From positions 1 through 41,693 of the IMG/VR virus record IMGVR_UViG_3300042558_000620: a stretch of 41,693 bases of DNA; one strand, given 5' to 3'. How positions within the stretch are numbered: the first letter of the stretch is position 1; the number at the start of each line of letters is the position of its first letter. Under the pieces are notes generated by a model, which ran no database searches, was not told the origin of the DNA, and saw nothing but the letters and a program-made list of their open reading frames with translations. This document shows positions 403 to 40,970 of the stretch, piece after piece. The DNA comes from a virus. Both the position numbers and the translations under genes were made by a program.

Positions 403-410
403 TATTTATA
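403..410 (+). promoter_or_regulatory. TATTTATA box 6 bases before the structural gene at 417
   Basis: An exact TATTTATA ends six bases before the ATG. The same box recurs before many structural and virion-like genes on both strands of the window. It differs from the host-type TAnnTTTG box. It is inferred to be a phage late promoter -10 element or a translation-start element. Confidence 0.5.
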
Positions 411-416
411 TAACAA

Positions 417-2858
417 ATGGCATACATAATCAAAAATACCTCTGGTTTAGTAAACACAAGAGTCACGGATACAGGTAGACAAAAAATATCTGAAGGTAAT
501 TTTAACATCGCGTATTTCCAAGTGGGGGATAGTGAAGTATCGTATAATGCATTATCATCAACATATAATCAACCATATAGTATGGTATTGGAGCCACCAT
601 TTAATAGTCAAAATAGTGCTGGGTCACCACAATCTAATAGACAAAATGTTAAGTATCCTTATTATGTTGATGGGACGGCAGGTAACACATTTGGTATTCC
701 TTATATGGATTCGGTTGTTGAACCTGTATTTAATAGAGCACCGTTAAGAGGATTTTTTTCGGGAAATACTACCGCAACAACGATTAGTTGGAGTGCGTTA
801 ACGAATAATAATTATGTTGTCAGCTCAAACTATGTTGTTAATATGTGTTCTTTAAGTGGGACAAATCAAGTTGAGTTAATATATTCGGGATCTAATTTAA
901 TTAATGAATCAATCCCTTCGGTTGGTGATTTTATCACAATTTATTATGATGGTAAGTGGGATGTAAATAATACTTGTTATAATTTACCAACACCAACCCC
1001 ATCGGCATCCGTTGGTATGACACAAACACCGACCCCAACACCATCGGTTACCCCAAATATAACGGGTTGTACCCCAACTCCGACACCAACACCAACAAAA
1101 ACACCTTGTTTGACACCATCATCATCATCTGTGTGTCCATTACCACCAATGGCGGATTGTTATATGTCAATCAATAGTTGTTATCCTATGATGACATATA
1201 GAATTGTTGCATATTGTAATAATGTGATTACGGTGGATAGAAATTTACCTGACTTTTCATCATTCTCGGGTTCTTGTTATTCAAGAACATTAATATACCC
1301 GTCAAATATGACATCATTATATGATAGTATAACACCGGCACCTCATTGGAATACTGATGTTATTAATTTTGAAACTGTTTGTGATATTGATGAGTTTGAT
1401 GTTAAAATATGGAATATGAATATTCCTTGGAGTGAAAGCCCGGCAGGATTATACCCTTCAGTGTATGAAGGATATGAATATTTTGGATCCATTGATTATC
1501 TTGGAACAAAAGAATATTTTGGATATGCGTCAAGTTTGGGACAAAAAGATACAAGTTCAGTTAATTACTATAATTCATTTGATGAGAAGATAGTAGTTCA
1601 ACCTGACGAACAAAAAGCGATTGCAATTATACATTATACAAATCAAACGATTGATTTCTTCTATGGTGAGAAATTTGCGTTAGAACCTTATGATTCGGCA
1701 AATCCTGAAGATACAACAGGACAAGCGAGAAACTTTAAACTACATTTACCTTGGTTGATGTGGCACAAAAATCCTGAATGTTGTTCGGGAGAAACATTTT
1801 GGGTTGATCCTGAAGGATTTGAGGATAAAAACTTATTTGATGTTCAATACATACAATCAAATAAAAATTCGGGAATGAATCAACCTGGTATTAGATATTA
1901 TCACCTTTGGGATACACACGCAAATGCCGATGGATACCCAAGTAGAATAGGTAAAGTATTCCCTGATAGTAAAATAGTGATTATTGATGATGAGGAGATA
2001 ATTGCGGCAATGTCATATAAAGCAAACAGAAACTGGACTTTACCGGCACCTCAAGTATCATTGGTAACACCAAATACCTGTGGAACACCAACATCAACAG
2101 TTGATGGGATATTGACAGGAAATACTGAAACTATGTATGTCACTTATAGATTGACAAATCAAACAGGTTTCACAAATTCATTACACTGTAATTACTATTC
2201 AAAAATTGTTGGTAATAACAATGATTGTAACCCGGACACTTCTAAAAATGTTGCATTAAGATTTGGTGCCGAGTTTGGATGTATGGTTCAACCGGTATAT
2301 AGTGCGGGAACACCTTGTATTACCGCTTGTAATTATTTACCTCAAGGATATTTCGGAACCAATTTTGAAATTTTATGTCAAAAAGTTACAACAGGAAATA
2401 AACCTGACTCAACTCAATGGAGAATAATTGATTATACCGATGTCATCAGTGCGTCAACAATCAATGGATATTTAACTCAAGATGGACTTACAGGAACCAC
2501 ATTTGTGATTACTCCTGAATTGTATAATGCCGCACCATATTATGATTTAAATGACTACATATCCTTAACAACATTGGGGACGACAGGACAAACTTTAAAT
2601 TTTGGGGATGAATTTTATTTTTATGGTGGTTTGGAAACTGATATCCAAGCAACAATATATGAAATGAAATATAAAATTAATTTGAGTAATGCTGAATTTT
2701 TAAACACATCAAATCCCACTTGGACACAAGGGACTAAATCATATATAACTGAAATTGCGTTATTGGACAAAAATAAAGATATTGTGGTTATGTCCAAACT
2801 ACAATCACCCGTGTTAAGACAAGGAATTCAACAGTTTGTGGTTAAGTTAGATTTCTAA
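417..2858 (+). CDS. Large tail/fibre-type structural protein with Pro-Thr linker
   Basis: An 813-residue protein. The N-terminus (AYIIKNTSGLVNTRVTDTGR) has the look of phage baseplate or tail-sheath-adjacent proteins, with an early statement of GRQKISEG. Residues of roughly 186-235 form a Pro-Thr linker built of TPTPTPS-like units and containing a few cysteines. The rest is a long Cys-, Tyr- and Asn-rich region without catalytic motifs. The final part (about 740-813) returns to a beta-rich pattern ending in VVKLDF. No signal peptide is visible. It follows another structural gene and carries a TATTTATA box. I infer a virion surface or tail protein; the exact part is not identifiable by eye. 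Confidence 0.65.
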   Translation: MAYIIKNTSGLVNTRVTDTGRQKISEGNFNIAYFQVGDSEVSYNALSSTYNQPYSMVLEPPFNSQNSAGSPQSNRQNVKYPYYVDGTAGNTFGIPYMDSVVEPVFNRAPLRGFFSGNTTATTISWSALTNNNYVVSSNYVVNMCSLSGTNQVELIYSGSNLINESIPSVGDFITIYYDGKWDVNNTCYNLPTPTPSASVGMTQTPTPTPSVTPNITGCTPTPTPTPTKTPCLTPSSSSVCPLPPMADCYMSINSCYPMMTYRIVAYCNNVITVDRNLPDFSSFSGSCYSRTLIYPSNMTSLYDSITPAPHWNTDVINFETVCDIDEFDVKIWNMNIPWSESPAGLYPSVYEGYEYFGSIDYLGTKEYFGYASSLGQKDTSSVNYYNSFDEKIVVQPDEQKAIAIIHYTNQTIDFFYGEKFALEPYDSANPEDTTGQARNFKLHLPWLMWHKNPECCSGETFWVDPEGFEDKNLFDVQYIQSNKNSGMNQPGIRYYHLWDTHANADGYPSRIGKVFPDSKIVIIDDEEIIAAMSYKANRNWTLPAPQVSLVTPNTCGTPTSTVDGILTGNTETMYVTYRLTNQTGFTNSLHCNYYSKIVGNNNDCNPDTSKNVALRFGAEFGCMVQPVYSAGTPCITACNYLPQGYFGTNFEILCQKVTTGNKPDSTQWRIIDYTDVISASTINGYLTQDGLTGTTFVITPELYNAAPYYDLNDYISLTTLGTTGQTLNFGDEFYFYGGLETDIQATIYEMKYKINLSNAEFLNTSNPTWTQGTKSYITEIALLDKNKDIVVMSKLQSPVLRQGIQQFVVKLDF

Positions 2859-2909
2859 AACTTTAATTTTACGCATTCATTATTATATTGTTAATAAATA
2901 ACTATTTTT

Positions 2910-3518
2910 ATGGCTAGACCTATTAAAAATTCACCAAAAATTCTTGGACTTGATGTCTCAACAAGAACAATAGGGTGGGCACTATTTGATATTAAAAATC
3001 AAGAATTATTAGAATTAACTCACATATCACCAAGACCAAAAACTAAAGATTATGGTGATAATAAAATATTGGAGTTATTACTTAAATCTGAAATCTTCAG
3101 AACAAAATTATTGGAATACAAAAATTTAGGTATTGTTAATGTAATAATTGAAGAACCATTAATGAACTCAAATAATGCATATACGATTCAAACCCTATTA
3201 AGGTTTAACACTTTAATATGTAAAGAAATATATGATGTGTTAGGGATAGTTCCCGAATTTATATCAACATATAACTCAAGAAAGTTTGCGTTCCCTGAAT
3301 TAGTTCAACCTAACGATAAAGGTAAGCATGTTTTATTTGGGGGACTACCAAAAGACATTGATAAGAAACAAATTATTTGGGATTTAGTTGCAAAAAAAGA
3401 ACCTCAAATCCAATGGTTATATACTAAAAACAACACACTCAAGAAAGAAAACTTTGATCAGACAGATGCATATACTTGTGTCTTGGGATATATGAATTCA
3501 AAAGATATTTGGAAATAA
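2910..3518 (+). CDS. RuvC-like Holliday junction resolvase (RNase H fold)
   Basis: A 202-residue protein with the acidic pattern of RuvC-family nucleases: GLDVSTRTIGWA near the start (Asp15), VIIEEP in the middle (Glu81/Glu82), and NFDQTDAY near the end (Asp183, Asp186). These family members cut branched DNA at Holliday junctions using metal ions. In large phages such enzymes resolve recombination intermediates before packaging, a role played in T4 by the unrelated endonuclease VII. It lies downstream of structural genes and ends just before a strong terminator. The start is the only ATG ahead of the first motif, and a TATTTTTA variant box abuts it. The family call is firm; the exact substrate is inferred. 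Confidence 0.82.
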   Translation: MARPIKNSPKILGLDVSTRTIGWALFDIKNQELLELTHISPRPKTKDYGDNKILELLLKSEIFRTKLLEYKNLGIVNVIIEEPLMNSNNAYTIQTLLRFNTLICKEIYDVLGIVPEFISTYNSRKFAFPELVQPNDKGKHVLFGGLPKDIDKKQIIWDLVAKKEPQIQWLYTKNNTLKKENFDQTDAYTCVLGYMNSKDIWK

Positions 3519-3570
3519 GTATATAAAAAACATAGATAAATCCAATTATCGTTTAAATAAGAGATAATTC

Positions 3571-3600
3571 AAAATATCGGTTAATCAACCGATATTTTTT
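3571..3600. terminator. Bidirectional intrinsic terminator
   Basis: A perfect 12-base stem (3571-3582 with 3587-3598) closes a 4-base loop. It has T-runs on the plus side and, because the stem begins with AAAA, a T-run on the minus side too. It sits between the resolvase gene and the convergent minus-strand structural gene and can stop transcription from both. Confidence 0.88.
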
Positions 3601-3623
3601 TGCATTATAATTTAGGGATTATA

Positions 3624-4739
3624 TTACCCTACCGGTGTTGATGATGACGGAGTTGGTGTAATTGTAGGTGTTACCGACGGTGTTGGGGTTAGAGTAACGC
3701 AAGGACAATCAACAAAAACAATATTTATATTGTTACCAACAGGGACTTTATACGATTTAACCGTAATTGTTGATCCCCCATTTATTGTAATTACTTCGGT
3801 TTGATTAGTGGAACAACTTTTAATATTAAATGTGTTTGAACTAAATAATAAATTCGTTACCTGATATTCACAACAAACACTCGGTGTTGATGATGGTGTT
3901 ATTGTTGGTGTTGGTGTTGGAGTTGGAGTTGGTGAGGAACTAACGGGAGGAGTACAAACAAGACATCCACCTTCAGAAACTAAACCAATTTCGGAGTTTA
4001 ATACGATAGTTGCAACACCAATAGTATTATCTACAGTTCCAATATATTCAACACATATATCAATTTCATTGACAGTTGCTTCATACACCATACCAATTAC
4101 AGGTGTAGAACCCATCGGATCTAACACAACATTAGTTGTTGAATACACAAATCCATTTAAACAATCCTTAAATTGTTTACTATTTGGACATTGAATATAA
4201 TCGTCTAATGTGTTAAATGTAACCGTTCCATTAACATTACAAGGTCTTGTAATTTCGGGGGACTGTGTTGGAGTTACCGTTGGTGTTGGCGTCGGTGTTG
4301 GACTATAAGTAACTCCCGAAACATCAATACCAACTCCCCCACAAGGATTAGTTGATGATGGTGTTATTGTTGGAGTTACCGTTGGAGTTGGTGTTGGTGT
4401 TGGTGTTTGAGTAACAACAACCTCACAATCAAAAATTGCATCAAAATCTATTGAACAAGCTGCGGTAGGTGATGGAGTTGGTGAAGGACAAATACCTGGA
4501 CCAAAAATTTCATCACACAAATCAGGACAAGAACTCACGCAAGGAGATTTCCCAAATAATAAACAAGTTGGATCACCTAAAGTAGTTGCCAAACACCATT
4601 GAGTTTGACCTGTGGAATAGTATATAGTGTGACTACCCCCAACAAAATAATCATAACCCGAATATGATCCACCATAAGTATAGGTACCATCATAGATGGT
4701 TCCACCACTAACACAATAATTTACTGAACAACCTCCCAT
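3624..4739 (-). CDS. Structural protein with five Pro-Thr linkers and Cys-rich segments
   Basis: A 371-residue protein in which short Cys-containing segments alternate with Pro-Thr linkers (TPTPTPTVTPTITPSS-type). Linkers occur near residues 85-92, 108-130, 148-164, 268-287 and 348-370. The N-terminal 80 residues are Gly/Tyr-rich and contain the only dense aromatic patch. The pattern suggests beads on stiff stalks, as in phage fibres or decoration proteins. It is read after the 73-residue gene at 4963 with a 2-base gap, so the two form a unit. The same linker type occurs in the plus-strand protein at 417. Family not recognised; a virion role is inferred. Confidence 0.6.
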   Translation of the reverse strand: MGGCSVNYCVSGGTIYDGTYTYGGSYSGYDYFVGGSHTIYYSTGQTQWCLATTLGDPTCLLFGKSPCVSSCPDLCDEIFGPGICPSPTPSPTAACSIDFDAIFDCEVVVTQTPTPTPTPTVTPTITPSSTNPCGGVGIDVSGVTYSPTPTPTPTVTPTQSPEITRPCNVNGTVTFNTLDDYIQCPNSKQFKDCLNGFVYSTTNVVLDPMGSTPVIGMVYEATVNEIDICVEYIGTVDNTIGVATIVLNSEIGLVSEGGCLVCTPPVSSSPTPTPTPTPTITPSSTPSVCCEYQVTNLLFSSNTFNIKSCSTNQTEVITINGGSTITVKSYKVPVGNNINIVFVDCPCVTLTPTPSVTPTITPTPSSSTPVG

Positions 4740-4741
4740 AT

Positions 4742-4963
4742 TTAAACTGTTACGGTGTCAGTTACGACACAATCATTATCATCCACAACTTTGACTATAA
4801 AATTAGTCAAAGATGAGTAAACAGGTGGAATCTCAAAGGTGTATGGTAATTCACCACTCGTTATTGTTGACACATAAATACAAGAAGTGTATCCTGTATC
4901 ACATACATAAACATCAAATGGTGTTGTTCCTGAAATATTATTTATTGTTATATCCGTTGGCAT
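4742..4963 (-). CDS. Small beta-rich structural protein
   Basis: A 73-residue protein with two Cys near the middle, a final acidic DDNDC segment and alternating hydrophobic residues typical of a single Ig-like or beta-sandwich domain. No catalytic motif. It is the first gene of the minus-strand pair and is preceded by a TATTTATA box, as expected for a late structural gene. Function beyond that is unknown. Confidence 0.6.
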   Translation of the reverse strand: MPTDITINNISGTTPFDVYVCDTGYTSCIYVSTITSGELPYTFEIPPVYSSLTNFIVKVVDDNDCVVTDTVTV

Positions 4964-4979
4964 TTACTATTATTATCTT

Positions 4980-4987
4980 TATAAATA
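4980..4987 (-). promoter_or_regulatory. TATTTATA box upstream of the minus-strand structural pair
   Basis: Read on the minus strand this is an exact TATTTATA, 16 bases before the ATG at 4963. The longer gap leaves room for a short leader. Confidence 0.5.
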
Positions 4988-5075: not shown

Positions 5076-5083
5076 TATTTATA
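5076..5083 (+). promoter_or_regulatory. TATTTATA box 3 bases before the RHH gene
   Basis: An exact box ending three bases before the ATG at 5087. It is one of two clear cases where the box precedes something other than a structural or virion-like gene; the other is the variant before the GIY-YIG gene. Confidence 0.4.
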
Positions 5084-5086
5084 TAT

Positions 5087-14283: not shown

Positions 14284-14301
14284 GAATTATTTATATCTTT
14301 G
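14271..14301 (+). promoter_or_regulatory. Bacteroidota-type promoter for the sigma-factor group
   Basis: ATTG at 14271-14274, 19-base spacer, and a perfect TATCTTTG at 14294-14301. The first gene starts 13 bases after the box. The -33 element overlaps the end of the methyltransferase gene. Confidence 0.75.
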
Positions 14302-14844: not shown

Positions 14845-15645
14845 ATGAAGGAAAAAGGAACAGGAATGCCTATTAATCAGGACGAAATCTCTCACTATTT
14901 AAAAGATATTAGGAAGATTAAAGTTATGACACCTGAAAGGGAAAAAGAATTGTCAAAACTTATGATGTCAGATACTTTAACTGATAACCAACGAAGACAG
15001 GTTGAGCAAGAATTATTGGTAGGTAATTTGCGATTTGTCATTACTGTTGCAAAACAATATCAAAATCAAGGATTGGACTTTCCTGACTTGGTTGCCGAAG
15101 GTAATTTGGGATTATTGAAGGCAATTAAAAACTTTGATTGGAGTAAAAACTTGAGGTTTATTTCATATGCGGTTTGGTGGGTTAAACAATCAATCATCCA
15201 ATCATTGAATGATAACGCAAGAACAATCAGGTTACCGGTAAATGTGGTTCAAGATCTTCACAGGGCGAAAAAAGAAATTGAGAGTAATGGGGGTAAATTA
15301 TCCGATAAATTCTCATCATTACCATCAATGATTGATTTGGATATGAATATTAACGATGAAGGTGATACATTCATAGATATGATTCCAAATATGGACGCTG
15401 ACGCTCCTGATGCGGCGTTTAACACTGCGGACATTCTTAAAGAAAAATTAATAAATACTCTTAATGTCTTGGACGAAAGAGAACGAGTAATTATTGAAGA
15501 TTATTTTGGACTATCCGGTACACCAAGAACTTTAGAGGATATTGGTTCGGATTTTGGTTTGACGAAAGAGAGAGTTAGACAAATTAAGGAACGGGCCCTT
15601 AGACGATTGAGAAATGAAAGTTCGGAGTTATTTGATTACTTATAA
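14845..15645 (+). CDS. Primary-type (RpoD-like) sigma-70 factor
   Basis: A 266-residue sigma factor. Region 1.2 is near residues 15-35. Region 2 is very well kept: NLRFVITVAKQYQNQGLDFPD then RFISYAVWWVKQSI, followed by IRLP. Region 4 ends with a helix-turn-helix, TLEDIGSDFGLTKERVRQIK. Region 3 is shortened compared with host RpoD, which is about 20-50 residues longer in Bacteroidota. Region 2.4 residues match Bacteroidota RpoD, so it may recognise host-like or altered promoters. It is a candidate for switching transcription to the TATTTATA class; that link is inferred. It sits in a group read from a host-type promoter. Confidence 0.9.
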   Translation: MKEKGTGMPINQDEISHYLKDIRKIKVMTPEREKELSKLMMSDTLTDNQRRQVEQELLVGNLRFVITVAKQYQNQGLDFPDLVAEGNLGLLKAIKNFDWSKNLRFISYAVWWVKQSIIQSLNDNARTIRLPVNVVQDLHRAKKEIESNGGKLSDKFSSLPSMIDLDMNINDEGDTFIDMIPNMDADAPDAAFNTADILKEKLINTLNVLDERERVIIEDYFGLSGTPRTLEDIGSDFGLTKERVRQIKERALRRLRNESSELFDYL

Positions 15646-16530: not shown

Positions 16531-16950
16531 TTACACCCAAATTACAAGTTGATTTCTACCCGTTCTAAAAGGATTGTTTTTTGATTCTCTAAATACGGTG
16601 AATACCTCTAATACCCAATTTGTTCCCGATATATGAACAGGATTTAAAGGGATTGCCAATTCCCACTTTTCTGACTTAACCACGAATGGTTCCCCATCCA
16701 CAATTTCACCATAAACTATTTTTTCAGCAATTTCAGTTTTGGCAAGCATTACAACCTCCCTAATTTCTCTACTTTCAATCGGTCTTTGATTATACCCAAC
16801 ATCATTTAATTCAGGTCTTGTTTTTCTATCATAAGAATGTTTTTTACGATCAATTTCTAAATTAAAGGTAACCTCAATAGAAGTAGATATCTGTGCAATT
16901 GTTTTTTCTTGTAATAAAATTTTACGAATTGATTCTTTAAGTAATGACAT
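16531..16950 (-). CDS. Putative virion-associated protein with targeting-like N-terminus
   Basis: A 139-residue protein beginning MSLLKESIRKILLQEK, a short amphipathic helix with a Leu-Gln-Glu at 13-15. The rest is a mixed domain ending VIWV without known motif. The ATG at 16950 is chosen because a TATTTATA box lies 5 bases upstream; the in-frame ATG at 16956 overlaps that box. Function unknown. The N-terminus suggests internal-virion targeting, by analogy. Confidence 0.6.
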   Translation of the reverse strand: MSLLKESIRKILLQEKTIAQISTSIEVTFNLEIDRKKHSYDRKTRPELNDVGYNQRPIESREIREVVMLAKTEIAEKIVYGEIVDGEPFVVKSEKWELAIPLNPVHISGTNWVLEVFTVFRESKNNPFRTGRNQLVIWV

Positions 16951-16955
16951 AATCA

Positions 16956-16963
16956 TATAAATA
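16956..16963 (-). promoter_or_regulatory. TATTTATA box for the minus-strand gene at 16950
   Basis: Exact box on the minus strand, 5 bases from the preferred ATG. It lies back to back with the plus-strand box at 16975, forming a divergent promoter pair. Confidence 0.5.
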
Positions 16964-16974
16964 CTTTATAATGG

Positions 16975-16982
16975 TATTTATA
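16975..16982 (+). promoter_or_regulatory. TATTTATA box for the membrane/coiled-coil gene at 17000
   Basis: Exact box, part of the 14-base palindrome GTATTTATAAATAC (16974-16987). The symmetry means it could act in both directions. The gap to the ATG is 17 bases. Confidence 0.5.
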
Positions 16983-16999
16983 AATACAGAACAATTATT

Positions 17000-18193
17000 A
17001 TGAAAGAAAAATTTTTACCTTGGTTTTTATTATTTTGTGCCTTAGGGTTATCTGGAACGGCAGCGTATTATTCGGTTGTCGGATTATCAATCGTATTTGT
17101 TGGGGTTGCATTACCTGTAATTATTATGGGATCATTCCTTGAAATATCTAAAATTGCAATCGCCACCTATCTACACGATAAATGGAAAGAGACATACGGA
17201 GTATTAAAAATATATCTGACAATTGCATTAGTTACCCTATCTATTATTACCTCACTTGGGATTTACGGTTTATTAAGCACAGGATTCCAAGGGAATATTG
17301 CAAAACTTGAAATAAACGAGAAACAAGTTAAGAACATTGAGGTTAAAAAGAAACGATTTGAGGAAGTTAAGGATGAGTTAAGTGAAGAGAAAACAACTTT
17401 AGATGGGGACATCACCAAATTAAGAGATGGATTGTCCAACAACACCACAACACAATCTGTGGATAGAAAAACGGGGCAAGTAGTCACTAAAGCGAATAAT
17501 GCCAACAGAAAGTCGTTTGAAACACAATTATCACAAGCACAAGTTAGAAGGGATACCATTGCAAAAAGAATTGATTCAATGAATGATAGTATCACAAAAC
17601 TTGATGTTGATATTTTGAATATGGAATCAGAAGAAATTTCAGGTAGTGAATTGGGTGCGTTAAAATATGTTAGCGAACTTTTAAATTGGGATATTAAGAA
17701 AACTGCCAACCTTTTTATATTAATATTAATCTTTGTTTTTGATCCATTAGCAATCACATTAGTTATTGCAACCAATCAAGCATTTAAAGGTTTACGAAAA
17801 AAACCTGACACCACAAAAGAATTATTGGAGGATATTGTTGAGGAGTTGACAACCGAACAAACACCAATCAAACACAGACCAAATACCGAACAAGTAAAAA
17901 AAATATGGGAAAAGGTTAAAAGATTGAGAGAAGAAGGTAAACTTCCCACACCAACACCTGAAGATTTGAAAGATGAACCAACCGCATTGGCGTTTACACC
18001 ATATGAAACTAAAGAAGATAGTTTTGCGAATTACGAAACATCTGAAGAAATATCTGATGAGGTAATGAAAGATGATCCAATACCGTCATTTGATGAAGTC
18101 ACAAATGAGGAATTATTTGACACAACTGACGATTATGAACTATATGATAGGGGAGTGAAAAATAAAAAAAGGTTAGTGTATAAGAAAGAATGA
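17000..18193 (+). CDS. Four-segment membrane protein with coiled coil
   Basis: A 397-residue protein. Three hydrophobic segments lie at about 5-23, 26-50 and 70-92, then a long charged coiled coil (100-215), a fourth segment at about 236-262 ending FDPLAITLVIATNQ, and an acidic tail. The GLSGTAAYYSVVGLS start and the FDPLA motif in the last segment are features I associate with a conserved family of large marine-type phages, without known function. The coiled coil lies between membrane segments, so both ends face the cytoplasm. It overlaps the amidase gene by 4 bases (ATGA), linking it with lysis. Confidence 0.6.
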   Translation: MKEKFLPWFLLFCALGLSGTAAYYSVVGLSIVFVGVALPVIIMGSFLEISKIAIATYLHDKWKETYGVLKIYLTIALVTLSIITSLGIYGLLSTGFQGNIAKLEINEKQVKNIEVKKKRFEEVKDELSEEKTTLDGDITKLRDGLSNNTTTQSVDRKTGQVVTKANNANRKSFETQLSQAQVRRDTIAKRIDSMNDSITKLDVDILNMESEEISGSELGALKYVSELLNWDIKKTANLFILILIFVFDPLAITLVIATNQAFKGLRKKPDTTKELLEDIVEELTTEQTPIKHRPNTEQVKKIWEKVKRLREEGKLPTPTPEDLKDEPTALAFTPYETKEDSFANYETSEEISDEVMKDDPIPSFDEVTNEELFDTTDDYELYDRGVKNKKRLVYKKE

Positions 18194-21204: not shown

Positions 21205-21212
21205 TATTTATT
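21205..21212 (+). promoter_or_regulatory. TATTTATT box before the gene at 21228
   Basis: A one-base variant of the recurring box, 15 bases before the ATG, just after the previous stop. Confidence 0.4.
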
Positions 21213-24832: not shown

Positions 24833-24847
24833 TTTTTAATATCTTTG
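24816..24847 (+). promoter_or_regulatory. Bacteroidota-type promoter for dnaJ
   Basis: ATTG at 24816-24819, 20-base spacer, and a perfect TATCTTTG at 24840-24847, 29 bases before the ATG. The -33 part overlaps the 5' end of the opposite-strand gene, so the two promoters may interfere. Confidence 0.75.
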
Positions 24848-26954: not shown

Positions 26955-26962
26955 TATTTATA
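26955..26962 (+). promoter_or_regulatory. TATTTATA box before the WCT/LRR gene
   Basis: Exact box 13 bases before the ATG at 26976, in a 49-base gap. Confidence 0.5.
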
Positions 26963-26975: not shown

Positions 26976-28823
26976 ATGAAATTAGTAAAAATTTTATCAT
27001 CAGTAATTGCGGAGAATGTTGATCCTAAATTTAGATTAACAGAAATATCAAATAAATTAATGAATCAACTTGTCGTTAAGTTTACGGAAGAAACTGAAGA
27101 TTCGGAGGACGACATCAAAAGTTACATTAATGACTTTGACAAATATAAAAACGGATTACCATCCGACAAACGAGACATTACAAAATATTCATACGAACAA
27201 CTTAAATCTTTGATTCAATCTAAAAGATCAAAGAAAGAAGAAGGGGATATTTTTAAGACATATATGAAAGGACCTGGTAAAGGTTCTGATCAAAGACAAG
27301 TTAAGTCAATGATTAAAAAATTCTTGGAGATAAGAAATTATTTACCTGAACCAAATAGAGATATTATGAAATATCCTTATTTAAGATTGGTTGAGTTAAT
27401 CCAAAATAAATTTGGTGGAATTATAACTAAAGCGGCTTTTGAAAAATATAAAAGAGAAAGAACTGATTTAACAAATGAACAAATCCTTTCATATATTGAA
27501 AGATATGTTGATTTATATGATAGATTGGAACCTAATACTCCACCAATTATGTTAATGTCATTTGATGATTTAGAAGCATCATTGGATCACTTACCTGATG
27601 GTGACGATGTTCCACAAAAGAAAGGTGACGACTTTAAAGATATTGAAAACATTTACGACAAAGATAATTTATACATCTTCAAACCAAATGGTAAAGAACA
27701 ATGTATTAGATTAGCACACGGAAGACCTTGGTGTACATCAAGAGTTGGTGGTGGTAACTTATACTACAACTATCGTTTGGAGAACAACCTAACACTTTAT
27801 TATGTTATTGATAAAGACAAATCATTTGACGATTTAAACTTTGCGGTGGTTATCTTGGTTGATGAATACGGAAGAAAAAGAATTGCCGATGGTAAAAATA
27901 TGGCGGGAGGATTCTCGGGACATAAAACTGAAAGTTGGGATGTAATATCTTCAAAAGTTCCTAAATTGGCGGACAAAGAATATTTATTCACCGCTGATCC
28001 ACTTACTGATAGAGAAAAAAGTTTATTAAGAAAGTATAAGAACATTAGTATTGTAGAGGATGCGGTTAAAGAACTTGGTTCAGTTGAAGATGCTGAATTT
28101 TGGTTGGAAATTGCGAGTCCAAACTTAACTAACAAACCTAGAGTTTATATTAACTTACCAGCAGAACTTAAAAAGAAATATATTTCTTTGGGTATGGACT
28201 TGACAGGTGATATGATTACAAATTCTGAACCTGATGTTGTTAAATATTATTTGGCAAGAAAGATTGATTCTTTAAGAACTAAATCTTTGTCAAATCTAAC
28301 AACCGCAGATATTGCATTAATCAATATGCCGACAATGAAAAACCTTAAAGAAGAATTGAAGGTTAAATATGCGGGACAATTAGCGACGGAGGGAGATAAT
28401 ATTGTTAAGATTACTTATCCAAATGACGCATCGTCAAAATACATTGCATTATTTGGATTTGATGAATTGTTTGAAAACTTACCTGAAACAATCACATACT
28501 TAACAATTGCTAATAAATCAAATGACACACTTGATTTGGATATACCGCCAAGTATTGGTAAATTTAGAGATGTTATTGCGTTAGTTCTTGAAAACTGCGT
28601 AAGAACACTACCTGAAGAGTTGGGACAAATGGAAGGATTAACATTCCTAACATTACAGAACAATAAAAATCTTCAAAGTTTACCTGAATCTTTGGCTGAT
28701 TTGGAATTTTTGGATCTTATTGCATTATCAGGTTCTAATCCAAATACGGAAATACCTGAAAGATTATCGGCAATGATGGTTGAAGAAGGTGAAGGTTTTT
28801 ACTATATTTCAAGAGATGTCTAA
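26976..28823 (+). CDS. Large virion-like protein with WCT segment and leucine-rich repeats
   Basis: A 615-residue protein. N-terminus MKLVKILSSVIAENVD with Ile-Ala-Glu at 11-13. Then two similar helical segments, at about 45-75 and 108-138 (Y-N/L-P-D/E...R-D-I-K/M-Y-S/P-Y), an apparent internal duplication. A central domain (225-330) holds AHGRPWCTSRVGGGNLYYNY and LYYVIDKD, related in pattern to phage domains with a WCT motif. The last 150 residues are leucine-rich repeats. No catalytic residue set is known to me. The N-terminus and the TATTTATA box point to the virion. Confidence 0.6.
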   Translation: MKLVKILSSVIAENVDPKFRLTEISNKLMNQLVVKFTEETEDSEDDIKSYINDFDKYKNGLPSDKRDITKYSYEQLKSLIQSKRSKKEEGDIFKTYMKGPGKGSDQRQVKSMIKKFLEIRNYLPEPNRDIMKYPYLRLVELIQNKFGGIITKAAFEKYKRERTDLTNEQILSYIERYVDLYDRLEPNTPPIMLMSFDDLEASLDHLPDGDDVPQKKGDDFKDIENIYDKDNLYIFKPNGKEQCIRLAHGRPWCTSRVGGGNLYYNYRLENNLTLYYVIDKDKSFDDLNFAVVILVDEYGRKRIADGKNMAGGFSGHKTESWDVISSKVPKLADKEYLFTADPLTDREKSLLRKYKNISIVEDAVKELGSVEDAEFWLEIASPNLTNKPRVYINLPAELKKKYISLGMDLTGDMITNSEPDVVKYYLARKIDSLRTKSLSNLTTADIALINMPTMKNLKEELKVKYAGQLATEGDNIVKITYPNDASSKYIALFGFDELFENLPETITYLTIANKSNDTLDLDIPPSIGKFRDVIALVLENCVRTLPEELGQMEGLTFLTLQNNKNLQSLPESLADLEFLDLIALSGSNPNTEIPERLSAMMVEEGEGFYYISRDV

Positions 28824-29147: not shown

Positions 29148-29178
29148 TTTGGTTATTAAAGATTAATTACTATCTTTG
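29148..29178 (+). promoter_or_regulatory. Bacteroidota-type promoter for the DUF932 gene
   Basis: TTTG at 29148-29151, a 19-base spacer, and TATCTTTG at 29171-29178. Both elements are perfect. The ATG is 23 bases downstream. Confidence 0.8.
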
Positions 29179-32612: not shown

Positions 32613-32667
32613 ATCTATTATATTTTTATAATGTGTATGAAATTAAAATAACAATATAAATAGTTTG

Positions 32668-34507: not shown

Positions 34508-34515
34508 AATAAATA
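34508..34515 (-). promoter_or_regulatory. TATTTATT box for the GIY-YIG gene
   Basis: One-base variant of the box, 3 bases from the ATG at 34504. It lies 45 bases from the plus-strand box at 34560, so the interval is divergent. Confidence 0.35.
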
Positions 34516-34559: not shown

Positions 34560-34567
34560 TATTTATA
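34560..34567 (+). promoter_or_regulatory. TATTTATA box for the gene at 34572
   Basis: Exact box followed by 4 bases (TGAT) and the ATG. This spacing supports the 34572 start over the in-frame TTG at 34545. Confidence 0.55.
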
Positions 34568-36123: not shown

Positions 36124-36128
36124 TTTAA

Positions 36129-36920
36129 ATGGCAAAAAGAAAAAAAAACAAAGGTATTGAATTTGTAATGGAAACCGATTGGTTATTTGAAAAACCAATT
36201 GATCAGGAACATAAAGAATATAAGTTATTGAGTTACTTCCAAAAAATGGGTGAAAAACTTGATAATATGGAATTATATCCCGGGTTTATTGAAATATCAC
36301 TTCATTTGGCAAGTATCCAAACCCTAATTAAAGACAAAAAATTAATCTATACTGATAAGAAGTTTGACACTATTGATGATGAACTTCTTGTTAAAGATTT
36401 GAAGATTAAACAAATTCCTGAAATGAATCAGGAAGAATCCCAAGAATTTAATAGTATCTTGAAATTCTCCGCACCAAGAATGATGGAGTATTTCAACATT
36501 GCAAAATCTGTATGGGCTGTTGTGTTTGACACAATTGAGGTTAAAATTAAGAAAAACAAAAAAAATCTATTAACAAATAAAGGTTATTTTTTCTATTACG
36601 AAAAGAAAACAAATAATCTATATGTTTGGGAATACAATGTAACTCCGGCATCAAGAGGATCAATGGAGAAAAAAACCCTCGTTAATTTAATTTATTCGGA
36701 ACCAAAAGGTAAGTTGACAATACCAAAAATAATTAATACACTTTCTCAATGGAGTGATGAAGCGGAAAGATCAACATTACCCGTATTTGAAATGAAGTGT
36801 AGTGATATTTTTCCAATCAATGAAACATTACTACCCTTATTTAAAAGAAAACTTATTTCCTATGTTAATCAAGAAATACATGAAAAAGAAAAAAAAATGT
36901 TACGAATTGAAATTAAATAA
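36129..36920 (+). CDS. Unknown phage protein
   Basis: A 263-residue protein with a basic start (MAKRKKNKG) and mixed domains (KGYFFYYEKKTNNLYVWEYN, LINTLSQW-like helices). No signal, membrane segment or catalytic motif. It begins a close-packed run of four genes up to the methyltransferase fusion and has a host-type promoter, so it is not in the TATTTATA class. Confidence 0.6.
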   Translation: MAKRKKNKGIEFVMETDWLFEKPIDQEHKEYKLLSYFQKMGEKLDNMELYPGFIEISLHLASIQTLIKDKKLIYTDKKFDTIDDELLVKDLKIKQIPEMNQEESQEFNSILKFSAPRMMEYFNIAKSVWAVVFDTIEVKIKKNKKNLLTNKGYFFYYEKKTNNLYVWEYNVTPASRGSMEKKTLVNLIYSEPKGKLTIPKIINTLSQWSDEAERSTLPVFEMKCSDIFPINETLLPLFKRKLISYVNQEIHEKEKKMLRIEIK

Positions 36921-36922
36921 AA

Positions 36923-37063
36923 ATGGATAACTTAAAAATTTTGGAACAATTAGTTAAGGAAAACCCAAACGATATTGAATTGGGAAAAAAGGTTAGAGAA
37001 ATGTATTACAACCTAAAAGATAATAAAGATGGGATTCAACAAGAGAATACTCAAAAAGGATAA
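36923..37063 (+). CDS. Small helical protein (46 residues)
   Basis: MDNLKILEQLVKENPNDIELGKKVREMYYNL then a Gln/Asn-rich tail. It starts 2 bases after the previous stop and overlaps the next gene by 35 bases in another frame. Unknown function; accepted because of spacing and codon use. Confidence 0.6.
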   Translation: MDNLKILEQLVKENPNDIELGKKVREMYYNLKDNKDGIQQENTQKG

Positions 37064-37211
37064 CATCATCAAAAATCTCAATAACTTATCAAGTTATTTA
37101 TCGGCAGAGGCAATCTTCACAAGTGATGACTTCTCAACGGAGGTTTTCAAAATGTTCTGTGAAGGAAAAACGGAGGATGAAATCATAAAATATATAAACA
37201 AAAACAAATGA
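37029..37211 (+). CDS. Small helical protein (60 residues)
   Basis: MGFNKRILKKDNIIKNLNNL... ending CEGKTEDEIIKYINKNK. Two overlaps: 35 bases with the previous gene and 4 (ATGA) with the next. I recall MGFNKR-type small proteins beside tail genes of large phages. Function unknown. Confidence 0.6.
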   Translation: MGFNKRILKKDNIIKNLNNLSSYLSAEAIFTSDDFSTEVFKMFCEGKTEDEIIKYINKNK

Positions 37212-37591
37212 CACAATTAGCAGAACGGTTCCCATTGATTGAACCATTAAGATGTAATCGTTGGATTATTAAATTGGATGGTATGGATATTGAGCCATTC
37301 TTATTTAGGAAATATAAAATGTATAATGAAGGTGAAGAAATCATATTCCTAACTGAATTTTATGAAACAGTCCAACAATCATACAACCCAAAGGATTTAT
37401 TAAATATCGTTGGTGTTACAATTGAATATTTGGATCCTACAGGAGTGGTTATTCAAACACTTAAATTTGATGTTAAAGGGTTAAACTTTGAGATTAAACA
37501 ATCTTACGGAAAAGATAAACTTCAAATAGTGAAACTTCGGTTTGTGGTGAATAAAGATACAATGAATCTAGGATATCAAGACAAGAAATAA
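37208..37591 (+). CDS. Possible tail-tube-like structural protein
   Basis: A 127-residue beta-rich protein (FPLIEPLRCNRWIIKLDG, FLTEFYETVQQSYNPKDLLN, VTIEYLDPTG). The layout of an N-terminal PLR-NRW strand and a YLDPTG turn resembles small tail-tube/tube-initiator proteins in T4-like phages. It starts by an ATGA overlap. The resemblance is in pattern only. Confidence 0.45.
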   Translation: MTQLAERFPLIEPLRCNRWIIKLDGMDIEPFLFRKYKMYNEGEEIIFLTEFYETVQQSYNPKDLLNIVGVTIEYLDPTGVVIQTLKFDVKGLNFEIKQSYGKDKLQIVKLRFVVNKDTMNLGYQDKK

Positions 37592-37592
37592 T

Positions 37593-38459
37593 ATGGACTT
37601 ACTAAAAGGAATGATTTTAGGTGGTGGTGAAGGAAACATTAGTTGGTATCCTGAAAGAATGCACACACTACAAGATTTGATATCTCAAACAAAACCAAAA
37701 AATATTATTGAGATAGGGTTTAATGAAGGACATTCAGCAATGATAATCTGTAATACATTAACCAAATTAATTCAGGAGGATAGTTCGTATAATAAAAATC
37801 CAATTAGATTTTTTATTTTTGATAGTTGCAAATATGGTTGCACAACAACGAACTTTGAGATTATGAAAAACCATTTTGCGAATTGGAATATTCATTTACA
37901 TTTATTTCCCGGCGATTCAGGAGATACTCTCCCAAGAGTTTTGGATACCGCAAATATAAAATTTGATTTTATTGAAATTGATGGATGTCATTTGGAGGAT
38001 TGCGTTAGGGAAGATATTAATAATGTTGTCCATTTTGTTAATGATGATGGTATAATTTATTTGGACGATTATAAATCTACGAAGGATCCAACGGAAGGTG
38101 TTGATAAAGTAATTGATTCATTTGACTGGAAAGGATTTAATACCTATTATATTGATGGGGTGTTTTGGGCTCACAAAAAGGAAGTTGAGGTGATTATGGA
38201 AAAAGATGACGATTTGGTATATAAAAATATGCCACCAATTAAAAAAGAACAAGTGAATCACCCAGAACATTATGGGGGAGGAAATAATGTTTATGAAACC
38301 ATAAAGGTGATTGACGCTTGGGAATTGGGATTCTCGCTTGGTAATACAATAAAATACATTTCAAGGGCAGGCAAGAAGAATAAAGATAAAGAATTGGAAG
38401 ATTTAAAGAAGGCAAAATTTTATTTAGATCATCACATTAAAACATTGGAGAATAAATAA
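37593..38459 (+). CDS. Fusion: SAM methyltransferase domain plus DUF3310
   Basis: A 288-residue protein. Residues 1-195 form a class I SAM-dependent methyltransferase of the Methyltransf_24 type (IIEIGFNEGHSA at 38-49, FDFIEIDGCH at 124-133, GIIYLDDY). Residues 220-288 form a DUF3310 domain (NHPEHY at 222-227, GNTIKYISRAGKK at 250-262, LKKAKFYLDHHI). In T7, DUF3310 is the domain of gene 1.7, a nucleotide kinase. The two are normally separate proteins. A Met at 202 could allow the DUF3310 part to be made alone. Substrate of the methyltransferase unknown. Confidence 0.8.
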   Translation: MDLLKGMILGGGEGNISWYPERMHTLQDLISQTKPKNIIEIGFNEGHSAMIICNTLTKLIQEDSSYNKNPIRFFIFDSCKYGCTTTNFEIMKNHFANWNIHLHLFPGDSGDTLPRVLDTANIKFDFIEIDGCHLEDCVREDINNVVHFVNDDGIIYLDDYKSTKDPTEGVDKVIDSFDWKGFNTYYIDGVFWAHKKEVEVIMEKDDDLVYKNMPPIKKEQVNHPEHYGGGNNVYETIKVIDAWELGFSLGNTIKYISRAGKKNKDKELEDLKKAKFYLDHHIKTLENK

Positions 38460-38461
38460 AG

Positions 38462-38665
38462 ATGAAATTAACTGAAGAACAAAAAAACCGCATTCTCAAT
38501 TTATATGAGGGTTTAAAAAGTGATGAAAAAACGCTTGGAGAAACATACGAAATAATTGTTGATTTTTGTGTTGACGAATACATCGTTGACTTATCGGATG
38601 ATGAGAACGGAGATATGTATGAATCGTTTTCAAATGAGGTGTGGGATTTATTAGAGAGTTTGTAA
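38462..38665 (+). CDS. Small acidic protein with MKLTEEQKNRILNLYE start
   Basis: A 67-residue protein. Its first half resembles the targeting-type starts elsewhere (Leu-Tyr-Glu at 14-16). The second half is very acidic (DLSDDENGDMYES). It follows the fusion gene after 2 bases. Possibly an internal virion peptide; unknown. Confidence 0.55.
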   Translation: MKLTEEQKNRILNLYEGLKSDEKTLGETYEIIVDFCVDEYIVDLSDDENGDMYESFSNEVWDLLESL

Positions 38666-38677
38666 TAGAGAAAAATA

Positions 38678-39526
38678 ATGATAGAGACAGGGAAAATAAT
38701 AAATGGGGATTGTATTGAGGTGATGAAAACATTACCTGAAGGATCGGTGGATTTGATGATATCATCGCCTCCCTATAACGTAGGGATTAATTATGATACA
38801 CACATAGATACTTTAGATATGGATGTGTATTGGGATTGGACTAAAGAATGGTTAACACAAGCTTACCGATTACTTAAAGATGATGGTAGGGTTTCTATTA
38901 ATATCCCTTACGAAACTAATGTTCGTGAACGAGGGGGTAGAGTGTTTTTTGTTTCAGAATTTTATCAGATAATGAAACAGGTTGGATTTAAATTTTTTGG
39001 AATTGTGGATTTAGAGGAACAATCACCACATAGAAGTAAGACAACTGCGTGGGGTAGTTATATGTCTTGTAGCGGACCATATATCTATAATCCAAAGGAA
39101 TGTGTAATACTTGCATATAAAAAACACCACATTAAAAAGGTTAAAGGAGAACCACAATGGAAAGGGACACCTACTGAAATTGAACAGGAGGATGGAACCA
39201 TAAAAAAGAAAGTTGTATATGAAGAGACAGATAAGAAAGAGTTTATGGAACTTGTTTTTGGTCAGTGGAATTACTTTGCAGATACTAAATCACTCACCAA
39301 GGCGACGTTTTCACTTGACATTCCCTCAAAGGCAATCAAAATACTATCCTACAAAAACGATGTAGTTCTTGATCCGTTTGCCGGTAGTGGAACAACATTA
39401 GTTGCTGCGGAAATACTCGGAAGAAGATGGTTAGGTATTGAGTTATCACCAAACTATACTGAAATTGCAAAGACAAGGGTTGAATATTTTAAAACTCTTG
39501 AACAGATAAAAGAAGATCAACTTTAA
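38678..39526 (+). CDS. Beta-class N4/N6 DNA methyltransferase
   Basis: A 282-residue protein with SSPPYN near residue 30 and DPFAGSGTTLVAAE near 236, the same order as in the methyltransferase at 13372 but with different target region. RWLGIELS follows motif I. Third DNA methyltransferase gene of the window; no neighbouring nuclease gene. It ends in a terminator whose loop holds the stop codon. Confidence 0.87.
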   Translation: MIETGKIINGDCIEVMKTLPEGSVDLMISSPPYNVGINYDTHIDTLDMDVYWDWTKEWLTQAYRLLKDDGRVSINIPYETNVRERGGRVFFVSEFYQIMKQVGFKFFGIVDLEEQSPHRSKTTAWGSYMSCSGPYIYNPKECVILAYKKHHIKKVKGEPQWKGTPTEIEQEDGTIKKKVVYEETDKKEFMELVFGQWNYFADTKSLTKATFSLDIPSKAIKILSYKNDVVLDPFAGSGTTLVAAEILGRRWLGIELSPNYTEIAKTRVEYFKTLEQIKEDQL

Positions 39527-39540
39527 TAGTTGGTTTTTTT
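39516..39540 (+). terminator. Intrinsic terminator after the methyltransferase
   Basis: ATCAACT (39516-39522) pairs with AGTTGGT (39528-39534), one G-U pair, loop TTAAT containing part of the stop, then seven T. Confidence 0.8.
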
Positions 39541-39551
39541 GTTTTATATGG

Positions 39552-39559
39552 TATTTATA
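39552..39559 (+). promoter_or_regulatory. TATTTATA box for LRR gene 1
   Basis: Exact box, 4 bases (GTAT) from the ATG at 39564. Confidence 0.55.
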
Positions 39560-39563
39560 GTAT

Positions 39564-40295
39564 ATGAAAATTATCATCACGGAAAACCAATTTGAAAAAC
39601 TAAAAAATTCCGAAGAACCAAAAGTTCTTCATATTCTATCATTTGAAATTTTTGGAAATGATTGGGACAAGTTACAAAAATATTTGGATAGAAAAGGAAA
39701 TCCATTATACTCAATTGGAGGTGATTTAGATTTATATGGATATAAAATTGAATCATTGGGAAATTTAACATCGGTTGAAGGTGATTTAGATTTACAAGAT
39801 ACACCAATTCAATCATTGGGAAATCTAACATCGGTAGGAGGTAATTTATATTTACGACATACTCCAATTGAATCATTGGGGAATCTAAAATCGGTTGAGG
39901 GTTCTTTAGATTTACAAAATACTCCAATCAAATCATTGGGGAATTTAACATCGGTTGGTAGTTATTTAGATTTACGAAATACTCCAATTGAATCATTGGG
40001 AAATCTAACATCGGTTGGGGGTGATTTATATTTATATGAATCTTCAATTAAATCATTGGGAAATTTAACATCGGTTGGAGGTATTTTATATTTAGAAAAT
40101 ACTCCAATTCAATCATTGGGAAATTTAACATCAGTTGAAGGTGATTTAAATTTACAAAATACTCCAATTGAATCATTGGGAAATCTAAAATCAGTTGGGG
40201 GTGATTTATATTTAGAAGATACACCAATATCAAATAAACATTCCGAACAAGAAATTAAACAGATGGTTAATATTGAAGGTGATATATATTTATAG
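39564..40295 (+). CDS. Leucine-rich-repeat protein 1
   Basis: A 243-residue protein. The N-terminal 52 residues (MKIIITENQFEKLKNSEEP...) are nearly the same in all three tandem copies and include Ile-Thr-Glu at 5-7. Then 8 full units of 20 residues, of the form GDLxLxxTPIxSLGNLTSVG, make a solenoid, and a fixed cap (SNKHSEQEIKQMVNIEGDIYL) follows. The fold presents a variable face at positions such as the TPI/SSI triplet. Likely a binding protein in or on the virion; partner unknown. Confidence 0.75.
   Translation: MKIIITENQFEKLKNSEEPKVLHILSFEIFGNDWDKLQKYLDRKGNPLYSIGGDLDLYGYKIESLGNLTSVEGDLDLQDTPIQSLGNLTSVGGNLYLRHTPIESLGNLKSVEGSLDLQNTPIKSLGNLTSVGSYLDLRNTPIESLGNLTSVGGDLYLYESSIKSLGNLTSVGGILYLENTPIQSLGNLTSVEGDLNLQNTPIESLGNLKSVGGDLYLEDTPISNKHSEQEIKQMVNIEGDIYL
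39721..40230 (+). repeat. 60-base tandem repeat array, LRR gene 1
   Basis: Eight full units and a partial one with a strict 60-base period and no indels. Key conserved core: AATCATTGGGAAATCTAACA followed by TCGGTTG. Units differ mostly in the 12-15 bases for the variable triplet. Confidence 0.9.
40287..40294 (+). promoter_or_regulatory. TATTTATA box for LRR gene 2, inside the end of gene 1
   Basis: The box is formed by the last codons (DIYL, stop) of gene 1, 4 bases from the ATG at 40299. Box, gap and ATG are the same as before gene 1. Confidence 0.55.
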
Positions 40296-40298
40296 TAT

Positions 40299-40970
40299 AT
40301 GAAAATTATCATCACGGAAAACCAATTTGAAAAACTAAAAAATTCCGAAGAACCAAAAGTTCTCCATATTCTATCATTTGAAATTTTTGGAAATGATTGG
40401 GACAGGATGCAAAGATATTTAGACAGAAAAGGAAATCCATTATATTCAGTTGGAGGTGATTTAGATTTAGAAGATATTTCAATTCAATCATTGGGAAATC
40501 TAACATCGGTTGAAGGTTATTTATATTTACGAAATACTCAAATTGAATCATTGGGAAATTTAACATCAGTTGGTGGTTATTTAGATTTACAAAATACACC
40601 AATTGAATCATTGGGAAATCTAACATCGGTTGGAGGTGATTTATATTTATACAAATCTAAAATTCAATCATTAGGTAATATAACATCGGTTGGGGGTTAT
40701 TTAAATTTAGGAAATACTCCAATTAAATCATTGGGAAATCTAACATCGGTTGAAGGTGATTTAGATTTACAAAATACACCAATTGAATCATTGGGAAATT
40801 TAACATTAGTTGAAGGTGATTTAAATTTACAAAATACACCAATTGAATCATTGGGAAATCTAACATCGGTTGGGGGTGATTTAGATTTAGAAGATACACC
40901 AATATCAAATAAACATACCAGTCAAGAAATAATACAAATGGTTAATATTGGTGGTGACATATATTTATAG
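40299..40970 (+). CDS. Leucine-rich-repeat protein 2
   Basis: A 223-residue paralogue with 7 full 20-residue units, one fewer than the neighbours, which explains its length. Differences from copy 1 are mainly at the variable triplets and in a few head residues (RMQRYLD for KLQKYLD). Cap ends NIGGDIYL. Confidence 0.75.
   Translation: MKIIITENQFEKLKNSEEPKVLHILSFEIFGNDWDRMQRYLDRKGNPLYSVGGDLDLEDISIQSLGNLTSVEGYLYLRNTQIESLGNLTSVGGYLDLQNTPIESLGNLTSVGGDLYLYKSKIQSLGNITSVGGYLNLGNTPIKSLGNLTSVEGDLDLQNTPIESLGNLTLVEGDLNLQNTPIESLGNLTSVGGDLDLEDTPISNKHTSQEIIQMVNIGGDIYL
40456..40905 (+). repeat. 60-base tandem repeat array, LRR gene 2
   Basis: Seven full units and a partial one, same core and period as array 1. 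Confidence 0.9.
40962..40969 (+). promoter_or_regulatory. TATTTATA box for LRR gene 3, inside the end of gene 2
   Basis: Formed by the codons of the DIYL end of gene 2, 4 bases from the ATG at 40974. Confidence 0.55.

Follow-up and report, generated by a model that had tools for sequence, protein, structure and literature searches.

A recurrent octamer before head and tail genes, a likely gp55-type late promoter of bS21 huge phages of Bacteroidota with many leaderless mRNAs predicted

The virus record IMGVR_UViG_3300042558_000620, whose 41,693 bases are the window analysed here, carries the octamer TATTTATA a few bases before a number of its genes, and the same box recurs upstream of many genes in six related genomes (a first set, G001, G002 and G004, and a second set fetched later, G003, G006 and G008). 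This box is very probably a promoter element. It is highly likely that transcription starts on an A at +4 to +6 past the box, and equally so that the genes behind it are late in timing. As a whole, we regard the element as a likely gp55-type late promoter in bS21 huge phages of Bacteroidota, from which many leaderless late mRNAs are predicted.

Counted on both strands, TATTTATA occurs 25 times in the window against 9.55 expected (100 dinucleotide shuffles, largest 20), and it is the top enriched upstream 8-mer. It lies within 30 nucleotides (nt) upstream of 12 of the 62 start positions used, which include two non-ATG ones (8290 and 9035), while shuffles of the concatenated upstream sequences (n=2000) averaged 0.84 with a maximum of 5. 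The eleven exact gene-proximal sites listed in a preliminary description of this DNA were all recovered, eight of them with a gap of 3-6 nt between the box end and the ATG as judged from site and gene coordinates, and the two one-base variants (TATTTATT) before 21228 (15 nt) and 34504(-) (3 nt) are also present. The eleven exact sites represent about nine independent cases, because the copies at 39564, 40299 and 40974 belong to tandem paralogues whose first residues are near-identical. A twelfth gene-proximal site, 14288-14295 before 14315, was not counted: it overlaps a host-type element, TATCTTTG, and the box is absent from the gene's three best-hit relatives. One of the remaining sites is the reverse half of a palindrome at 16975-16986; among the twelve others, 32655-32662(-) is 42 nt upstream of the 32612(-) gene and eleven fall within called genes or open reading frames, four of these in a repeated coding motif past 40000. 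Over whole genomes, the reversed octamer occurs about as often as TATTTATA, so that the position relative to gene starts is informative and box counts alone are not. The gene-proximal sites of the window are the following.

403-410 (+), putative late box TATTTATA, 6 nt upstream of ATG 417; in the best-hit relatives of this gene the gap is 6 in G001 and G004 and 4 in G002 and G003, with no box in G006
417-2858 (+), gene after this box, 813 amino acids (aa), virion-like according to the preliminary description, without a PHROG match
4980-4987 (-), putative late box, 16 nt upstream of ATG 4963(-)
5076-5083 (+), putative late box, predicted leaderless, 3 nt upstream of ATG 5087
16956-16963 (-), putative late box, predicted leaderless, 5 nt upstream of ATG 16950(-), whose product starts MSLLKESIRKILLQE
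16975-16982 (+), putative late box, half of the palindrome TATTTATAAATA, 17 nt upstream of ATG 17000; box also in the three best-hit relatives of this gene, at gaps 16-17
16979-16986 (-), reverse half of the palindrome, which may give the 16950(-) gene a second promoter
21205-21212 (+), box variant TATTTATT, 15 nt upstream of ATG 21228, then ATAAAAAAC; box in the four best-hit relatives
26955-26962 (+), putative late box, 13 nt upstream of ATG 26976, with AAA at +4 to +6 past the box; box in the three best-hit relatives
26976-28823 (+), gene after this box, 615 aa
33688-33695 (-), putative late box, predicted leaderless, 3 nt upstream of ATG 33684(-); box in three of five best-hit relatives
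34508-34515 (-), box variant TATTTATT, 3 nt upstream of ATG 34504(-)
34560-34567 (+), putative late box, predicted leaderless, 4 nt upstream of ATG 34572; box in two of five best-hit relatives
39552-39559 (+), putative late box, predicted leaderless, 4 nt upstream of ATG 39564
40287-40294 (+), putative late box, 4 nt upstream of ATG 40299 (paralogue of 39564)
40962-40969 (+), putative late box, 4 nt upstream of ATG 40974 (paralogue of 39564)

Whole genomes gave a much larger sample. Gene calling relied on a simple codon score, with ATG starts and a minimum length of 40 aa, and the gene starts are themselves predicted; no identical 30-nt upstream sequence is common to any two of the six genomes or the window. 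The exact box was found within 30 nt upstream of 39 of 293 genes in G001, 36 of 223 in G002 and 38 of 272 in G004, where 1.27, 0.78 and 1.23 were expected, and in the second set before 44/295, 39/256 and 31/187 genes (G003, G006 and G008). The scan of complete genomes that had been proposed as a check was thus strongly positive in six relatives. The consensus box is R-TATTTAT-W, and its composite with a phased AAA run, R-TATTTAT-W-N2-4-AAA, stood near starts at 38 of 52 sites in G001, 32/42 in G002, 36/47 in G004, 33/50 in G003, 43/51 in G006 and 32/41 in G008, compared with 4/19, 4/13, 2/17, 9/19, 7/26 and 4/10 for the reversed composite in the same order.

The distance from box to start codon is bimodal, with two discrete groups. 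For an extended box set, comprising TATTTATA or TATTTATT after A or G, the first set had 59 genes with gaps of 3-6 nt, 9 with gaps of 7-10 and 103 with gaps of 11-17; the corresponding numbers in the second set were 62, 13 and 85. Gaps of 0-2 were empty in all six genomes when the scan of the extended set was carried into the genes, and six cases at gap -1 resemble start codons called one ATG too early, an example in the window being 16956. From spacing alone, some third of all box genes (121/364) are predicted to be leaderless. The proposal that box genes have near-leaderless mRNAs therefore survives in part: it suits the 121 genes of the six genomes with gaps of 3-6, and not the 194 with gaps of 11-18.

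The longer-gap genes indicate where transcription may begin. In those of the first set (gap 11-21, n=114), A occupies the positions +4, +5 and +6 past the box at frequencies of 0.86, 0.89 and 0.93, while alignment of the same genes at the ATG gives a peak of 0.77; the second set (n=101) gave 0.81, 0.91 and 0.94 past the box. The phased AAA is visible separately at each gap from 12 to 16, with a lower A at +4 for gap 11 (0.7, 7 genes) and a weaker signal for gap 17 (4 genes). For short-gap genes, the place that AAA holds in the leadered class is taken by the A of the start codon. Because AAA is phased to the box, and because the A of a short-gap ATG falls at the same place, an A located 4-6 nt past the box is probably the start site. 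Taking the fifth base past the box as +1 puts the box at -12 to -5, and in this numbering 296 promoters have an AT content of 0.87-0.95 at -29 to -26 and of 0.82-0.87 at -22 to -19, these patches sitting 14-17 nt upstream of the box. The same promoters had no excess of TTG at -33 (0.125, against 0.04-0.19 elsewhere).

The timing is suggested by the kind of gene that carries the box. A class scan used TATTTAT followed by A, C or T at gaps up to 52 nt and took, for each gene, the best hit among the gene calls of each genome, so that an absent box may also mean a gene missed by the gene caller. Head and tail genes had the box in 36 of 45 checks, against 1 of 41 for replication and control genes, in agreement with the preliminary description, which had placed the box before structural and virion-like genes. 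Several gene names rest on position, and the major capsid protein (MCP) gene (G001 138300) is presumed from its position and its N-terminus.

Prohead protease, 6/6
Neighbour of bS21, 6/6
Gene before MCP-like gene, 4/4
Head-tail adaptor, 5/5
Tail sheath, 5/5 (gaps 31-36)
Large terminase (TerL), 4/6
Portal, 3/6
MCP-like, 2/6
Small gene before portal, 1/1
Primase, 0/5
Exonuclease, 0/5
SbcC, 0/6
Methylase, 0/2
DnaJ, 0/7
RpoD-like sigma, 0/5
gp55-like sigma, 0/6
DUF932-like, 1/5 (loose variant, gap 2)

An unnamed gene beside SbcC (window 9038) and four methylase matches at 25-29% identity were excluded from the 41; the eight control checks so removed were all without a box, and the tally that includes them is 1/49. 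Furthermore, box genes of the first set begin transcription units more often than other genes (42/66, 40/55 and 44/64, against 102/226, 90/166 and 85/207; p 0.011, 0.018 and 1.7e-4), a preference not seen in the window (5 of 10 box genes, 18 of 31 others, p 0.72). Orthologues that share less than 60% identity have often both retained the box: 200 such pairs, which are not independent of each other, have it in both members, 156 in one and 605 in neither. Enrichment before starts and the preference for head and tail genes support the original idea of a -10-like box of a late promoter.

The window, itself a fragment, has relatives among large phages. Its RpoD-like sigma and the 615-aa box gene matched many viral contigs, some of 270-322 kb; the relatives' genomes have a guanine plus cytosine (GC) content of 30-34%, and the six analysed measure 187-322 kb. 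A T4-type S77 prohead protease (PF03420) was found in four of five relatives and bS21 (PF01165) in five of five, the two tests using slightly different sets of five. G001 encodes a portal protein, a large terminase and a tail sheath, and its bS21 gene, at 135021-135179(-), sits beside the prohead protease at 135771. PHROG and Pfam, the family libraries scanned for gene names, gave no match for many large genes. These features match the lake-dwelling bS21 huge phages for which Bacteroidota hosts have been predicted (PMC9723584), with which the group shares genome size, GC content, bS21 and the neighbourhood of the head genes. According to that study, structural-gene RNA and bS21 are late; there is no single operon, but co-transcription is possible for the protease and the gene downstream of it, and for MCP and the gene upstream of it, RNA data that the box-marked units fit. 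The words "promoter" and "sigma" do not occur in its main text, and of the papers listed by literature searches none, judged by title and abstract opening, describes the TATTTATA box.

T4 late transcription requires gp55, gp33 and the sliding clamp gp45; the gp55 family lacks sigma domain 4 and has a C-terminal sliding-clamp-binding motif. Outside the window, the T4 gp55 family phrog_234 gave one weak match in each of eight genomes out of eight (E 1.5e-4 to 5.3e-3). The candidate of G001, P0001 (248 aa), is highly conserved, with relatives in 198 viral stretches, of which the best 80 were kept and 33 aligned. Its profile compared by hhalign with that of nine gp55 proteins gave a probability of 69.6% (E 4.2e-5), ten column-shuffled controls reached at most 0.7%, and the scores to host RpoD and to the RpoD-like phage sigma were 0.6% and 0.3%. 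The Pfam family most matched by its members is Sigma70_r2 (24/33, best E 0.011, with the first member under the cut-off), and a PDB sequence search returned gp55 third of three (E 0.42). A structural model of P0001, with a mean predicted local distance difference test (pLDDT) of 73.7, resembled sigma-E (Z 10.6 and 10.4) and T4 gp55 (7d7c_F, Z 10.2, 3.1 Å, 102 residues) about equally, in a comparison where Z below about 13 can be chance for helical bundles; all 50 entries listed were sigma or RNA polymerase holoenzyme structures, and Foldseek found no match to the model at E <0.001. From these sequence and model comparisons we take P0001 as a gp55-like sigma by its domain 2. About 90 further helical residues follow; modelled alone (pLDDT 85.9), they have as best structural match residues 130-201 of sigma-H (3mzy, Z 5.6, 3.5 Å, 72 residues), which is below the level of trust, and Foldseek (best E 1.7) and hhalign to RpoD profiles (0.8-1.9%) add little, so that a sigma 4 fold is suggestive only, the match being too weak to trust.

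Some other genes of the window have promoters of the host type TAnnTTTG. The preliminary description had noted that the box differs from this type; in the box, ATA or ATT stands in place of the host TTG. Three host-type elements are relevant here.

14294-14301 (+), host-type element TATCTTTG before the 14315 gene; the overlapping TATTTATA at 14288-14295 is judged incidental
24840-24847 (+), host-type TATCTTTG before the DnaJ-like gene 24877, DnaJ being named from sequence without a family search
29171-29178 (+), host-type TATCTTTG before the 29202 gene, which is similar to an annotated DUF932 phage protein

In Flavobacterium johnsoniae, the -7 element lies at -12 to -5, with 4 or 5 nt to the start in those promoters accepted as probable by the authors, and AT-rich zones are centred at -18 and -28 (PMC6847099). 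The late box thus shares with the sigma-A promoter of Flavobacterium the position of the element, the spacing to the start and the AT-rich zones, and differs in having no TTTG. Host leaders average 33 nt (PMC6847099) and leaderless mRNAs make up 5.5% in F. psychrophilum (PMC9723704), which would make the predicted leaderless late mRNAs unusual for such hosts.

In the mechanism that we infer, from start site and timing to sigma-box pairing, cascade and leaderless translation, TATTTATA (R-TATTTAT-W) would act as the -7/-10 element of late promoters in bS21 huge phages. The host RNA polymerase core with a phage late sigma, most likely the gp55-like one, would need no -33/-35 element to recognise the box, which lies at about -12 to -5, aided by AT-rich DNA near -28 and -20, and would start on an A 4-6 nt past the box. 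In one layout this initiating A would be that of the ATG, giving a leaderless mRNA; in the other, the RNA would start at the AAA run and carry a leader of about 8-11 nt, sometimes of about 30 nt as for the tail sheath. Host-type TAnnTTTG promoters stand before some other genes, including the operon that encodes the RpoD-like sigma, which suggests a cascade in which the host sigma leads to a phage sigma and this in turn to the late genes. As for the reader of the box, we lean towards the gp55-like sigma. A more speculative and rather doubtful extension is that there are two discrete kinds of late mRNA, strictly leaderless or with an AAA leader of about 8-11 nt, that leaders of 1-5 nt are avoided, neither initiation route accepting them, and that late ribosomes with phage bS21 favour such 5' ends. 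Slippage during initiation at the AAA run might, in addition, extend the leader by extra A residues.

Several observations weigh against this picture. The box is missing from about 70-80% of called genes. TerL has no box in G003 and no more than a variant in G006, the portal gene has one in 3 of 6 genomes, and bS21 itself, although reported as late, has an exact box upstream in one of five genomes (G006), with a variant in G002 as well. With a looser pattern, a single gap of 2 turned up (DUF932 in G008). When the second set is aligned at the ATG, A reaches 0.89 at -11 (0.70-0.77 at -7 to -10 and -12), a smaller contrast with the box alignment than in the first set, and the AAA rule is blurrier in a survey of 160 short loci, which dropped repeated 30-nt upstreams, counts one orthologous place many times and supports no conclusion drawn here. 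Strict host-type promoters, the contrast class, are modestly above their reversed control (16 against 10 in the window; 92 against 51, 94 against 45 and 75 against 66 in relatives) and precede few genes (3/42 in the window, 15/293 in G001, 8/223 in G002 and 7/272 in G004). With regard to the sigma, phrog_234 also matches half of the control genomes (7 of 14), T4 gp55 as a single protein matched one of five genomes (E 0.0045), and a second late-sigma family, phrog_12791, matched one of five at a different place. The gp55 profile scores only 3.7% to host RpoD and 2.4% to the RpoD-like phage sigma, and because gp55 itself scores so low, the low P0001-RpoD scores are weak contrasts. TATTTATA is absent from the 50 kb examined of two distant phages that match the gp55-like protein weakly (22-27%). 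Since two sigmas co-occur, the pairing of sigma and box is tentative.

This second sigma lies in the window.

14845-15645 (+), RpoD-like phage sigma, 266 aa, starting 5 nt after the 14315 gene and probably in the same operon

It is a compact primary-type sigma that aligns to primary sigmas through their C-terminal end, with relatives in 364 viral stretches (80 kept). It contains FISYAVWW.KQSI.QSL, where a set of 80 loci, most of them with Bacteroidota titles, has FISYAVWWIRQ.I.Q in 79; we take this stretch to be region 2.3-2.4. That this compact relative of the host primary sigma reads the late box is a minority possibility in our estimate. The box and the host -7 element both have T-12, A-11, T-8 and T-6, the protein departs from Bacteroidota sigma-A at several residues just past the FISYAVWW..Q..I.Q core, its relatives turn up widely, and its place behind a host-type promoter is as expected of an early-made regulator. 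However, the core motif departs little from the host sigma-A one, which suggests a TAnnTTTG-like specificity, and it aligns through the C-terminal end of primary sigmas, yet the box promoters have no -33 element; a gp55-like sigma is also encoded in all eight genomes tested. The preliminary description had pointed to the 14845 product as a dedicated late sigma, a role that is less supported given that its presumed region 2.3-2.4 keeps most Bacteroidota sigma-A residues, that its operon has a host-type promoter and that a gp55-like sigma is encoded elsewhere in the genomes.

The box could instead belong to translation, its AU-rich sequence helping ribosomes to bind where the host makes no use of Shine-Dalgarno sequences, an idea also raised in the preliminary description. 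The box is close to start codons, the A at -11 is frequent in the second set, and Bacteroidota translation is tuned by adenines upstream of AUG (PMC6847099). This alternative is nevertheless very improbable: the AAA keeps a closer phase with the box than with the ATG, the distances are two with a gap between them, AT patches lie upstream of the box, and box genes preferentially begin transcription units. A composition artefact, in which such octamers are simply common in AT-rich intergenic DNA before genes, can practically be discounted, for although the genomes are AT-rich and other AT-rich upstream words are enriched (e.g., AAATAAAA), 12 observed cases face 0.84 in shuffles of the same upstream bases, only the shifted form ATATTTAT of 56 anagrams exceeds the box, in three genomes, and the box has bimodal spacing and orthologue conservation; the second set of genomes contradicts such an artefact as well.

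A gp55-type late promoter can be compared with two known phage systems. T4 late promoters have an 8-bp box one turn before the start and no -35 element (PMC2988020). The promoter proposed here shares with the T4 one, TATAAATA, an AT-only 8-bp box about one turn before the inferred start, AT-rich DNA just downstream, the absence of a -35 element, the virion genes served, a sigma domain 2 related to gp55 and an S77 prohead protease. It differs in having the TATTTATA orientation with phased AAA and the ATG 3-6 or 11-17 nt past the box. In 50 kb of T4, 11 TATAAATA sites lie within 72 nt of 44 listed starts, all at 14-28 nt, and the leaders that follow are mostly purine-rich and Shine-Dalgarno-like. 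The earlier suggestion of a T4 likeness through the reverse complement TATAAATA is less supported: TATTTATA is the preferred orientation, and TATAAATA is rarer upstream of genes, where it occurs mostly at gaps of 7-10 and is read as palindromic TATTTATAAATA sites. In the giant genome of the jumbo phage AR9, many genes are likewise preceded by a short late consensus, but its motif, AACA-(6N)-TA/G, is attributed to a phage multisubunit polymerase (PMC5312081). Among other phages examined over 50 kb each, Flavobacterium phage immuto has the box in 3 of 71 genes, and none was found in PAU (0/47), Mel-JY01 (0/34) or LR756508 (0/47).

The proposed promoter would provide start-site predictions at base resolution for hundreds of late genes in abundant uncultured lake phages, and would link a promoter class to a candidate sigma. 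Leaderless mRNAs, rare in this phylum according to two Flavobacterium studies, are predicted here in number, and the avoided leader lengths offer a natural test of how Bacteroidota initiate translation without Shine-Dalgarno sequences, on ribosomes that possibly carry phage bS21. A two-domain gp55-like protein would also bear on why T4 late sigma functions are split.

Some minor features deserve mention. The palindrome TATTTATAAATA (16950-17000) separates divergent genes with boxes on both strands and is a possible two-way promoter; overlapping box sites on opposite strands, 4 nt apart, recur in relatives. The tail sheath gene has its box 31-36 nt before the ATG in five of five genomes (G001 210639-210682), a conserved longer leader. 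Upstream of bS21, TATATATC-like sites occur in G001 and G004.

A short charged helix opens many box genes (21228, 26976, 34572, 39564 and 16950(-)), and these N-termini resemble T4 capsid-targeting sequences, an S77 protease being present in relatives. Patterns picked by eye on G001 and the window (ITES..., KESIRKIL...) were found, outside these two, in 66 of 298 box genes and 89 of 935 others. In a count by leader class with slightly wider patterns, they occurred in 36/121 and 52/194 box genes and in 131/1162 boxless genes; the N-termini do not explain the box, because they are equally frequent in both leader classes and present in boxless genes. At 39564-41693, three tandem paralogues each have their own box and a near-identical N-terminus (MKIIITENQFEKLKNSEEP...), followed by repeats, and box plus N-terminus look like one duplicated module. 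Repeated Thr-Pro stretches occur in 417-2858 and 3624-4739(-), close together on opposite strands.

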